Shown here in pieces: positions 61,594 through 64,000 of a DNA stretch of 64,000 nucleotides. The notes beneath the pieces were generated by a model, which was given only the letters and a program-made list of their open reading frames with translations, did no database searches and was not told where the DNA came from. The stretch covers positions 54,772-118,771 of the forward strand of contig CACXMA010000002.1 in NCBI GenBank assembly GCA_902768665.1, written 5' to 3'. Source of the DNA: an uncultured Bacteroidia bacterium (GTDB lineage Bacteria > Bacteroidota > Bacteroidia > Bacteroidales > UBA932). The position numbers and the translations under genes were made by a program. Within the stretch, counting starts at the first letter, position 1; each line of letters begins with the position of its first letter.

Positions 61594-63039
61594 ATGCTGG
61601 GAGCCAGGGAAAGAGGAATGAAACAGTCGTTCGACTGGGTGCTGGTGGGGGTTTACCTGCTGCTGGTGCTCATCGGCTGGGTCAATATCTATTCCGCCGG
61701 GCACACCGCCGAGGCGGGATCCATCGTCGACTTCGGGACCCGCGCCGGAAAGCAGTTCTTCTGGATCCTGACGGCGATCGGACTGGCCGTTTTCGTGCTG
61801 TTCGTCTTCAGTGCGCGCCTTTGGGAGGGGGTGGCCGTTCCGGTCTACCTTTTCGTGCTCCTGCTGCTGGCGGCGGTCATCTTCCTCGGCGTGGAGGTCA
61901 AGGGATCGCGGTCGTGGTTCGAATTCGGGCCCGTGCGCTTCCAGCCGGCGGAAATATCGAAAATATCGACTTCGCTCATGCTGGCGATGGTCATGGGGCG
62001 GCTCGGCTTCAAGATGGGCCGGGCCAAGGATTTCCTGACGGTCGTCGCCGTGCTCGCCGTCCCGATGATGATCATCCTGGCGGAAAAGGAGACGGGGTCG
62101 GCGCTCGTGTATCTCGGCTTCATCTTCGTGATGTACCGGGAGGGCCTGTCCGGCTGGCTGCTGACCCTGCTGGGCAGCTGCGTGCTGCTGTTTATCCTGA
62201 CGCTGACGGCATCCCCTTACGTGGCCGTGCTTGTCCTGACGGCGATCGCCGTGCTCTCGAACGCAGTCGTCAGCGGCAGATTCTGGAAATGGACGCTCTG
62301 GGGAGGGCTGTTCATTGCTGCTTTCGCCCTGCTGGCCTGGGGACTGGAAAAGGGCTACCTGCCGGCCCTGGTGGCGAAGATCGAGCCGATGTGGGTCCTT
62401 ATCGGCACGCTCGCCGTCGTTGTGACGGTCATGGCCTGGCGCTGCTTCCGCCGGCCGAACCGCTTCCTGGTCCATTCGATCCTTGGCTTCCTGGGCGGTC
62501 TCGTGCTGATCTTCTCGGTGGATTTCATCTTCGACCACGTGATGCAGGAGCACCAGCGCAAGCGCATCGAGGTGCTACTCGGCATGAAGGAGGACCCTTC
62601 GGGCGTCGGATATAACGTCCACCAGTCAATGATCGCCATCGGCTCGGGCGGGGTCGACGGGAAAGGTTACATGCAGGGCACCCAGACGGCCTTCGGCTTC
62701 GTCCCCGAGCAGTCGACCGACTTCATCTTCTGCACCGTCGGCGAGGAATGGGGCTTTGTCGGCTGTCTGATCGTCATCGCGCTGTACGTGTTCATGATCC
62801 TCCGCATCCTGCACGACGCCGAAGCGTCCCGGGAGGCCTTCACCCGCATCTACGGCTACTGCGTCGCCGCGTGCATCTTCATGCACCTGTTCATCAACAT
62901 CGGCATGACCATCGGCATCATGCCCGTCATCGGCATCCCCCTGCCGCTGCTCAGCTACGGCGGCTCCTCCCTGTGGGCCTTTACCGTGCTGATTTTCATC
63001 TTTATCGCCCTGGACCATCAGGAAAAGAAATATTTTTAG
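61594..63039 (+). CDS. mrdB: RodA, SEDS peptidoglycan glycosyltransferase
   Basis: 481 residues, about ten helices. SEDS motifs are VEVKGSRSWFEFGPVRFQPA, GSALVYLGFIFVMYREG, FVPEQSTDFIFCTVGEEWGF and GIMPVIGIPLPLLSYGGSSL. It polymerises glycan strands with PBP2. The protein is longer than E. coli RodA (~370) because of a ~90-residue extra central region (~190-300) with additional helices, common in Bacteroidetes. A second possible start is at 61618. The operon ends here; the tRNA-Leu promoter follows within a base. Confidence 0.95.
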   Translation: MLGARERGMKQSFDWVLVGVYLLLVLIGWVNIYSAGHTAEAGSIVDFGTRAGKQFFWILTAIGLAVFVLFVFSARLWEGVAVPVYLFVLLLLAAVIFLGVEVKGSRSWFEFGPVRFQPAEISKISTSLMLAMVMGRLGFKMGRAKDFLTVVAVLAVPMMIILAEKETGSALVYLGFIFVMYREGLSGWLLTLLGSCVLLFILTLTASPYVAVLVLTAIAVLSNAVVSGRFWKWTLWGGLFIAAFALLAWGLEKGYLPALVAKIEPMWVLIGTLAVVVTVMAWRCFRRPNRFLVHSILGFLGGLVLIFSVDFIFDHVMQEHQRKRIEVLLGMKEDPSGVGYNVHQSMIAIGSGGVDGKGYMQGTQTAFGFVPEQSTDFIFCTVGEEWGFVGCLIVIALYVFMILRILHDAEASREAFTRIYGYCVAACIFMHLFINIGMTIGIMPVIGIPLPLLSYGGSSLWAFTVLIFIFIALDHQEKKYF

Positions 63040-63047
63040 TACCTTTG
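63040..63047 (+). promoter_or_regulatory. -7 element TACCTTTG of tRNA-Leu
   Basis: Perfect TAnnTTTG starting one base after the rodA stop; predicted transcription start ~63054, nine bases before the tRNA 5' end. Confidence 0.7.
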
Positions 63048-63062
63048 CAACCCCAACCTCCC

Positions 63063-63372
63063 GCCTTGGTGGTGGAATGGTAGACACGAGGGACTTAAAC
63101 GTGCCAATGGCACAATTGAGTGCGCGCTCTGAAAAGAGAGACGTAGAATGTCGTAAATTCAAGGAAGCCTTAGCGGGTAATGCCGATGGTAATCTTGAGC
63201 CAAGCCTTCGAGAGAAGGAAGGTGCAGAGACTAGACACGACACACCTAAAGGGTTTAACCCCATGGTGAAGGAATAGTCCGGACCACAAACAGCGATGGT
63301 GGCGAAAGCCATAGTGGCAAGAAAATCCCTTGGCCCGAAACGGCCGTGCGGGTTCGAGTCCCGCCCGAGGCA
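63063..63372 (+). tRNA. tRNA-Leu(UAA), interrupted by a group I intron
   Basis: Exons 63063-63096 and 63322-63372 join to an 85-nt class II tRNA. Acceptor GCCTTGG pairs with CCGAGGC (one U.G), discriminator A; CCA is not encoded. The D arm is of Leu type (GGTGGAATGGTAGACAC). Anticodon stem AGGGA/TCCCT encloses loop CTTAAAA with anticodon TAA. The long variable arm is GGCC-CGAAAC-GGCC, and the T arm GCGGG-TTCGAGT-CCCGC. The intron splits the anticodon between U34 and A35, the classic site of tRNA-Leu(UAA) group I introns. UUA decoding requires splicing unless another UAA gene exists elsewhere. Confidence 0.95.
63097..63321 (+). ncRNA. Group I intron (IC3-like) in tRNA-Leu
   Basis: 225 nt, no endonuclease gene. 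P1: exon ACUU plus intron AA pairs with UUGAGU, giving the required U.G at the 5' splice site, with extension GTGCC-AAT-GGCAC. A GAAA-capped hairpin CTCT-GAAA-AGAG follows. Core elements: P (AATTCAAGGAAGCCT), Q (AATCTTGAGCCAAGCC), R (GTGCAGAGACTAGACACG) and S (AAGGAATAGTCC). P7 forms from GACTA (R) and TAGTC (S). Further GNRA hairpins are CCTTC-GAGA-GAAGG and TGGC-GAAA-GCCA. The last intron base is G (omega G). These elements closely resemble cyanobacterial and plastid tRNA-Leu introns. Confidence 0.95.
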
Positions 63373-63383
63373 CGCAAAAGCGA

Positions 63384-63414
63384 CGGAGATGTCCCCGATA
63401 AGGGGACATCTCCG
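63384..63414. repeat. Perfect 13-bp palindrome downstream of tRNA-Leu
   Basis: CGGAGATGTCCCC-GATAA-GGGGACATCTCCG. The same stem sequence recurs in the next hairpin (63434-63466), so the two are related repeat copies. Confidence 0.75.
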
Positions 63415-63433
63415 CATATAAAGGCCGATAATT

Positions 63434-63475
63434 GCGGAGATGTCCCTGTTTTTGGACCATCTCCGCAGTTTTTAA
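63434..63475 (+). terminator. Hairpin and T-run after tRNA-Leu (possibly bidirectional)
   Basis: GCGGAGATGTCC...GGACCATCTCCGC with one bulged base, followed by AGTTTTT. Ends at the stop of the convergent TfoX-domain gene. Confidence 0.6.
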
Positions 63476-63780: not shown

Positions 63781-64000
63781 TTACAGATGCCTTTGATAAT
63801 CCATTTTCTCGTGGAGAATACGATCTACCTGGATTGAGCCCTCTTTGTGCTTCTTATAAAAGATAATGTGATGTCCGACCTTAAAACCAAAGAGCCCCGG
63901 TTTGATGACATCATATCTCTTTTCAAGGAAAACAGGCAGATTGTTCAATCCCTGAATAGCGCCATATATCTGCCGATAATAGATGACCGCCTGTTCTTCC
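63781..64000 (-). CDS. ParE/RelE-superfamily toxin-like protein (5' end outside window)
   Basis: An open frame enters from the right edge and stops at TAA 63783-63781. It gives 72 C-terminal residues, including AVIYYRQIYGAIQGLNNLPV, RYDVIKPGLFGFKVGHHIIF and YKKHKEGSIQVDRILHEKMD. The final R-I-L-H-x-x-M-D is the typical ParE/RelE ending. An antitoxin gene would be expected just outside the window. It is probably in one transcript with the TfoX-domain gene. Confidence 0.8.
   Translation of the reverse strand, partial: EEQAVIYYRQIYGAIQGLNNLPVFLEKRYDVIKPGLFGFKVGHHIIFYKKHKEGSIQVDRILHEKMDYQRHL

Follow-up and report, generated by a model that had tools for sequence, protein, structure and literature searches.

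A group I intron in the tRNA-Leu(UAA) gene of a Bacteroidales genome and its probable place in a mobile family with phage relatives

Positions 63063 to 63372 (forward strand) of the window, the 64,000-nucleotide stretch of an uncultured Bacteroidales genome analyzed here, hold a tRNA-Leu(UAA) gene with a 225-nt group I intron between U34 and A35. The intron is probably an ORF-less, nonautonomous member of a mobile (homing) family of tRNA-Leu(UAA) introns: the structure and the site recur in relatives, sibling introns carry HNH endonuclease ORFs that have been under purifying selection, the distribution is patchy, and related introns occur in phages. A sequence-only reading of this DNA had proposed a group I intron in tRNA-Leu(UAA), and that call was borne out.

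The 5′ exon (63063 to 63096, GCCTTGG...GGGACTT, ending at U34), the intron (63097 to 63321, without a full endonuclease gene, its final base the terminal G), and the 3′ exon (63322 to 63372, AAAATCCC...GAGGCA, beginning at A35, with discriminator A at 63372 and no encoded CCA) lie on the forward strand, and sequence, ARAGORN, and the spliced fold agree with the exons, insert length, and insertion site first read from the letters. Joined, the exons form an 85-mer that folds as tRNA-Leu(taa) (ARAGORN on the spliced sequence), the product that reading had expected. Intron-allowing ARAGORN placed a 225-nt insert at position 35 and the gene at 63063 to 63373, which extends the 3′ end by one base; default ARAGORN (no introns) found zero tRNA in the window. 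A proposed Rfam comparison gave a match over RF00028 model positions 1 to 253 at window 63087 to 63297 (E, 3.0e-11), at 48 bits and so below the 50-bit gathering score, a limit set by curators rather than a feature of the fold; a gathering-level scan of the window was empty. With ARAGORN blank unless introns are allowed and RF00028 2 bits under its cutoff, the tRNA and the intron would both escape default annotation, and an essential tRNA would seem to be missing from many gut genomes. Another intron copy passed the gathering score in 9 of 199 genomes of the family. A search of the window's own genome that tolerated up to three mismatches gave no uninterrupted tRNA-Leu(UAA) arm; the assembly is 88% complete, and a second copy could be missing from it. 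Two short inverted repeats based on GGAGATGTCC, terminator-like, follow the tRNA gene at 63381 to 63466.

The fold was scored as a 48-pair structure (P1, P2, P3, P4, P5, P6, P6a, P7, P8, P9, and P9.1) on an alignment of 22 introns (11 from Bacteroidales, 2 from Chitinophagia, 2 from Alphaproteobacteria, 1 from Acidobacteriota, and 6 from phages). Paired cells made up 97.9% of 1045, a percentage flattered by drawing the structure on the window row; double changes are not so flattered, and changes on both sides were seen in 30 of the 48 pairs (185 cells, against a shuffled mean of 55, with 0 of 500 shuffles as high). When the partner was slid by 1 to 3 columns, pairing fell to 28 to 41%. P1 (63093 to 63121) joins exon ACUU (63093 to 63096) to the guide GAGU (63118 to 63121) and is invariant in the alignment, with the U.G pair at the 5′ splice site in 22 of 22 introns; its loop contains a short hairpin in the window intron and is occupied by the endonuclease ORF in relatives. 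P2 (63125 to 63140, GAAA loop) has double changes in 6/6 pairs, as does P3 (63149 to 63154 with 63237 to 63242), which is 100% paired. P4/P5 (63159 to 63198; alignment helices 4 and 5) supply the P and Q elements, followed by P6 and P6a (63199 to 63223; helices 6 to 8, helix 8 paired in 75% of cells). P7, the G-binding helix with the R and S elements (63229 to 63233 with 63275 to 63279), is pseudoknotted with P3 and 100% paired, with variation in 1 of its 5 pairs. P8 (63243 to 63268), whose loop carries a further coding segment in phage relatives, and P9 with P9.1 (63284 to 63317; helices 11 and 12, GAAA loop in P9.1) complete the forward-strand structure. The intron thus has the P3-to-P9 core of a group I intron, with its P3/P7 pseudoknot and backing from covariation, and both the U.G pair and the terminal G, the latter present in all 30 introns of the genus for which loci were available. 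Every element named in the sequence-only reading (P1 with U.G, P/Q/R/S, P7, GNRA loops, and terminal G) was found. The P7-P3 spacer is GAC alone (3 nt), hence there is no P7.1/P7.2; a small P5 extension marks the Bacteroidales type and is absent from the other aligned introns. Subgroup IC3 is marked by having neither P7.1/P7.2 nor a P5abc domain, and the window fold may resemble that of the IC3 tRNA introns. The passage on P5a-d in PMC11835236 served for this comparison. Judged against the relatives, a chance origin of the intron is excluded, because site, splice junctions, and fold recur there, with covariation.

Genus and class were searched with a DNA pattern that combines the R and S elements with the 3′ exon; it fixes the UAA exon and A-U in P7 and is blind to most other tRNAs and, we assume, to the cyanobacterial form of P7. 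Across 101 genomes of the window's genus (its own included), the pattern occurred in 36, an uninterrupted arm in 41, both in 2, and neither in 26; the two with both (G631 and G664) are draft genomes in which contamination could explain the two forms. Within the family, RF00028 matched 14 of 199 genomes, or 12 of 199 in three genera once two false matches were removed (L013 and L014, 27.7 and 24.1 bits, in DNA without tRNA exons). An order-wide RF00028 search with stricter filters gave 4 of 393 genomes, one of them (G005) false, and in the class as a whole the pattern was present in 4 of 395 genomes, counting the window's own; the tRNA in one of these 4 is called tRNA-Arg. These RF00028 figures are undercounts, as the model at E 0.01 misses the phage introns L325, L326, L327, and L329. 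A slightly stricter pattern had at least 119 loci in named genomes, with Bacteroidales, Chitinophagia, many Alphaproteobacteria, Burkholderiales, and Acidobacteriota among the matches listed; ARAGORN called 84 of the 119 listed tRNA-Leu(UAA) with an intron and gave 35 another name or none. Viral contigs, some of the short ones possibly misassigned, had the pattern at 120 loci or more, with 99 of those listed called tRNA-Leu(UAA) by ARAGORN; a version of the pattern in which the P7 pair is C-G had no match in them. Plasmid matches were confined to 9 Bradyrhizobium records (71 to 77% over part of the query), and no intron match was found in Escherichia coli genomes.

A search of other Bacteroidales for the same insertion had been proposed, and the pattern occurs in the 36 genus genomes. 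A Bacteroidales host also held up, named Bacteroidales contigs matching both the upstream DNA and the tRNA plus intron (L034, L036, L055, L060, L068, and others). An assembly chimera or contamination, in which the intron-bearing contig would not be from Bacteroidales, had been named among the things that would overturn the reading; the draft state of the genome (26 contigs, 88% complete) is in its favor, but the flanks match intronless and intron-bearing relatives (e.g., L279) and the pattern recurs across the genus, which makes this explanation highly improbable.

Just upstream of the tRNA lies a gene that we take to be of rodA type (61594 to 63039, forward strand), a neighbor kept in filled and empty relatives, and this rodA-tRNA-Leu neighborhood holds alleles of both kinds. 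The distance from rodA to the tRNA varies from 61 to 3273 nt, and the locus is not always identical. The empty locus L279, of the same genus, matches the window over 62527 to 63099, 63322 to 63373, and 63782 to 63999, and the downstream flank matches three loci of the genus (L279, L291, and L319). A RodA tree was built from this one gene (181 columns; 20 rows, 13 filled and 7 empty), leaving out L266, which the pattern skipped, and L317, which duplicates the window. The tree requires 5 switches between presence and absence of the intron (bootstrap, 5 to 6), with 3 switches forced by starred, well-supported branches, a scatter close to that of shuffled labels (mean, 6.1 changes; 121 of 500 shuffles as low). 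At one starred fork, L034, which has the intron, is sister to L279, which lacks it. The occurrence of intron-bearing and intronless alleles next to the same gene, scattered over its tree, is one mark of a mobile intron.

A second mark, an endonuclease ORF within the intron, is lacking in the window copy and present in siblings. Introns were examined at 30 of the 36 genus loci, and all 30 follow GGGACTT, end in G, and are succeeded by AAAATCCC. Nine contain an HNH ORF of 183 to 206 amino acids that starts in the P1 loop and extends into the ribozyme core; three show decay (135 amino acids in a 733-nt intron, 93 amino acids in 389 nt, and none in 607 nt); and 18 introns of 210 to 263 nt, including the window's, have no ATG-started ORF of at least 60 amino acids on the intron strand. 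In another genus, L015 and L016 carry a 215-amino-acid ORF from the P1 loop to the TAG of the P7 3′ strand, with Pfam HNH_3 and HNH above cutoff. This ORF also matched PHROG 10822 (E, 4.8e-43); the HNH protein of L036 had no match among solved structures. Among 14 ORFs (91 pairs), synonymous sites were saturated in 85 pairs, and dN/dS was 0.07 to 0.18 in the 6 remaining pairs, with dS above 1 in 5 of them; these values point strongly to long-lasting purifying selection on the nuclease ORFs.

The 66-codon ORF of the window (63077 to 63277, forward strand) had been dismissed as false. It exists, and it is not simply false: it holds the tail frame of an HNH endonuclease, the 55 residues encoded at 63110 to 63274 being 78% identical to the C-terminal end of the sibling-intron enzyme. 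It is probably a relic that is not translated. Protein-level selection on this core-encoded tail was considered and dropped for want of a signal: among distinct introns (65 listed, minus 4 without a match and 7 duplicates), 9 of 14 with an ORF and 23 of 40 without keep an open frame across the core as far as the shared TAG (Fisher p, 0.76). In G670 (L294, 761 to 1231, minus strand), an HNH gene stands on its own about 100 nt upstream of a second-lineage intron-bearing tRNA-Leu and on the opposite strand; it is 71% like its intron-encoded counterpart and has no core-encoded tail.

The ORF-less window copy and the visible decay in 3 of 30 copies would also suit a once-mobile family that is now an immobile relic, its splicing-competent ORF-less copies staying because precise loss is hard and its present-day transfer negligible. 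We consider this quite unlikely, given the long HNH ORFs in 9 of 30 copies plus L015 and L016, dN far below dS, and the sister placement of filled L034 and empty L279.

An intron tree, which the sequence-only reading had suggested, was built, with modest support (144 rows, 213 columns, SH-aLRT values); it omits six long-branch rows and the cores of L326, L330, and L334, and it includes 16 of 49 Pseudomonadota rows. Bacteroidales introns stand at three places: the window's clade (55 Bacteroidales rows plus L132); a group of Prevotellaceae loci L037 and L140 with L108 and the window-genus introns L294 and L303; and L024 with L063. The Bacteroidales label needs 4 changes, all forced by starred branches, with the second and third lineages on very long branches and their exact placement unsure. 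The window's clade joins the phage introns L331/L333 at SH-aLRT 94. Over 132 nt of core, L331 and the window share 85.6% identity, and of the introns retrieved from outside Bacteroidales, the closest lie in phage tRNA-Leu(UAA) genes. In AU tests, keeping together the introns of two further genera in the family (g15 and g16) was not rejected (p, 0.098 and 0.067), so transfer between genera is suggested rather than established.

These trees bear on the choice, left open at first reading, between an old intron kept and horizontal transfer. An ancient intron, inherited vertically in Bacteroidales (perhaps since a common ancestor with cyanobacteria) and often lost, with HNH ORFs that came later and are now irrelevant, is unlikely. 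The window-type introns do form one clade of Bacteroidales rows, ORF-less copies are in the majority (18/30), genus-wise clades are not rejected by the AU tests, and losses alone could account for part of the patchiness. Such descent sits poorly, however, with the rarity of the pattern in the class (4/395 genomes sampled), the 4 forced changes on the intron tree (two lineages on very long branches), the 5 changes on the RodA tree, the strong purifying selection on the HNH ORFs, and an ORF-into-core build found in phage introns as well. Repeated gain and loss, with HNH-bearing and phage relatives, is favored, and vertical descent genus by genus is not formally rejected.

Under repeated gain and loss, the window copy would be the resident stage of a gain-decay-loss cycle. 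Group I splicing consists of two guanosine-initiated transesterifications; the ribozyme would excise itself from pre-tRNA-Leu, exon ACUU paired with GAGU, to leave a normal tRNA, and this removal would be needed because UUA is read solely by tRNA-Leu(UAA). A sibling HNH enzyme may cut intronless tRNA-Leu(UAA) alleles, with the break repaired from an intron-bearing copy (homing). Once the site is filled, the nuclease would decay and leave an ORF-less intron; in the window the nuclease domain would have gone while the ribozyme and the core-encoded tail frame were kept. Phages whose tRNA-Leu(UAA) genes contain introns built in the same way would be the likeliest vehicles from species to species.

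ARAGORN placed tRNA-Leu(UAA) introns in Agrobacterium phage Atu_ph07, LR756501 (735 kb), and LR756511 (595 kb). By eye, a group I-like intron interrupts a tRNA-Leu(UAA) of the Prevotella-assigned phage Lak-B1 at U34/A35, and the second Bacteroidales intron type resembles this intron, also by eye; RF00028 gave no match to this locus (L326) at E 0.01, and ARAGORN read the gene as tRNA-Leu(gag) with a single 649-nt insert. At about 1126 to 1869 of L326 (MK250020.1, 289679 to 293338), the tRNA-Leu appears by eye to be twice interrupted by group I-like sequence, at U34/A35 and in the D-loop after GGU (ending G before AGACACGAGG); the D-loop site would be unusual. The crAss-like cr111_1 (L324) was not counted as an intron carrier, as no group I core was found. 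It has an HNH gene directly behind tRNA-Leu, then an apparent second tRNA 3′ end, and is perhaps a tRNA-targeting insertion without an intron.

The window intron and the cyanobacterial and plastid trnL intron are small ribozymes in the same tRNA and presumably share the U34/A35 site; the window family differs in its patchiness and its HNH-bearing and phage kin. That this intron is a hallmark of cyanobacteria and plastids, as the first reading had it, is true of the literature: passages of PMC4476775 give tRNA-Leu(UAA) introns from cyanobacteria and plastids and describe the cyanobacterial one as generally believed to be of ancient origin and found in most cyanobacterial lineages. A cyanobacterial link for the window intron is neither shown nor needed, since the same site is filled in Alphaproteobacteria, Burkholderiales, Acidobacteriota, Chitinophagia, and phage contigs. 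Introns are also carried by tRNA-Ile of Azoarcus and tRNA-Arg of Agrobacterium, and proteobacterial tRNA introns are small and anticodon-placed, with a core similar to the window's. The proteobacterial tRNA-Ile and tRNA-Arg introns sit in other tRNAs; tRNA-Leu(UAA) copies also occur in Alphaproteobacteria and Burkholderiales among the matches listed. Of the other bacterial tRNA introns cited at first reading, parts of PMC8450103 document tRNA-Ile2 (Acidovorax and Burkholderia) and tRNA-fMet (cyanobacteria).

In passages of PMC6784885, the tRNA introns of Lak megaphages are called enigmatic, with one tRNA intron for B1 in Table 1 and tRNA-Tyr named in the text; no mention of group I introns or tRNA-Leu was found in those passages. 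Lak megaphages resemble the present phages in having introns within phage tRNA genes. The word "intron" is absent from a paper on huge phages (PMC7162821). According to section 11 of PMC3984707, there was little evidence for horizontal movement of bacterial introns among bacterial species, and all phage introns then known were in protein-coding genes. In the literature covered, largely outside subscription journals, no report was found of group I introns interrupting tRNA-Leu(UAA) in phages or Bacteroidota, and within the reach of these searches the mobile Bacteroidales-phage form would count as a new version of an already known type of intron. An old question, whether tRNA introns have been inherited vertically as relics or travel as homing elements carried by phages, becomes testable, with filled, decaying, and empty alleles within one genus and phage relatives as natural test material.

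In four phage loci (L330, L331, L333, and L334), a single ORF comprises an HNH domain, an in-frame core-encoded stretch, and a second segment that we read as cysteine-rich and HTH-like; Pfam had nothing above cutoff over this segment. ARAGORN found tRNA-Leu(UAA) exons around L330, L331, and L333, not L334, and L332 and L336 have the same ORF as L331. Read letter by letter, the L331 ORF begins in the P1 loop, occupies the P8 loop with its last part, and terminates in the 3′ strand of P7; PHROG 10822 covers residues 2 to 265 of its 277-amino-acid protein (E, 1e-53). The P8 domain is absent from Bacteroidales ORFs. Endonuclease ORFs overlapping a group I core are already known (PMC3984707, section 5) and likewise run into the core; here the phage ORF crosses the core to a second domain in P8, so that the core would encode a linker, an arrangement of which no description was found in the parts of the literature consulted.

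Three free-standing phage homologs were compared with the L331 protein, whose core-encoded stretch covers about residues 151 to 197. There the Atu_ph07 protein (L385) has gaps of 8 and 21 residues and aligns before and after; that of Enterococcus phage 113 (L386) has a 25-residue gap, aligns on both sides, and has more gaps beyond; and that of Salmonella phage SE_PL (L387) is free of large gaps, so that some sort of linker is possible in the absence of a ribozyme. The statement that free-standing homologs lack exactly the linker was rejected as too strong, two of three being shorter there and SE_PL not. The SE_PL gene and a homolog in Rhodococcus phage Francesca adjoin annotated tRNA-Leu genes (taa in Francesca; anticodon not given in SE_PL).

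A broader reading, which we offer tentatively, is that the anticodon loop of tRNA-Leu(UAA) may be an active homing site in Bacteroidales of the gut, in other bacteria, and in phages as large as megaphages, its carrier an HNH-HTH gene interrupted in frame by a ribozyme core. If so, one RNA would serve both as catalytic core (P2 to P8) and as translated linker from a nuclease (P1 loop) to a DNA-binding domain (P8 loop), with the shared stop codon in P7; bacterial copies would have lost the P8 domain first and the nuclease next, giving mini-introns like the window's, and the textbook site of an ancient immobile intron would be an active homing site.

Four further introns were seen in passing. A 0.5-Mb genome of the same class (G716, 93% complete) has a tRNA-Leu(UAA) with a 214-nt intron (L381, 1455 to 1756), and in G845 a tRNA called Arg(tct) by ARAGORN has a 648-nt intron fitting the same R/S pattern (L380). 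ARAGORN called Ile(tat) with a 212-nt anticodon-loop intron in another family of the order (L023 in G450; RF00028, 51.8 bits). Klebsiella phage phiKp_21 (L379, about 1110 to 1424) has a clustered tRNA-like gene with, by eye, a different group I intron seemingly inside.
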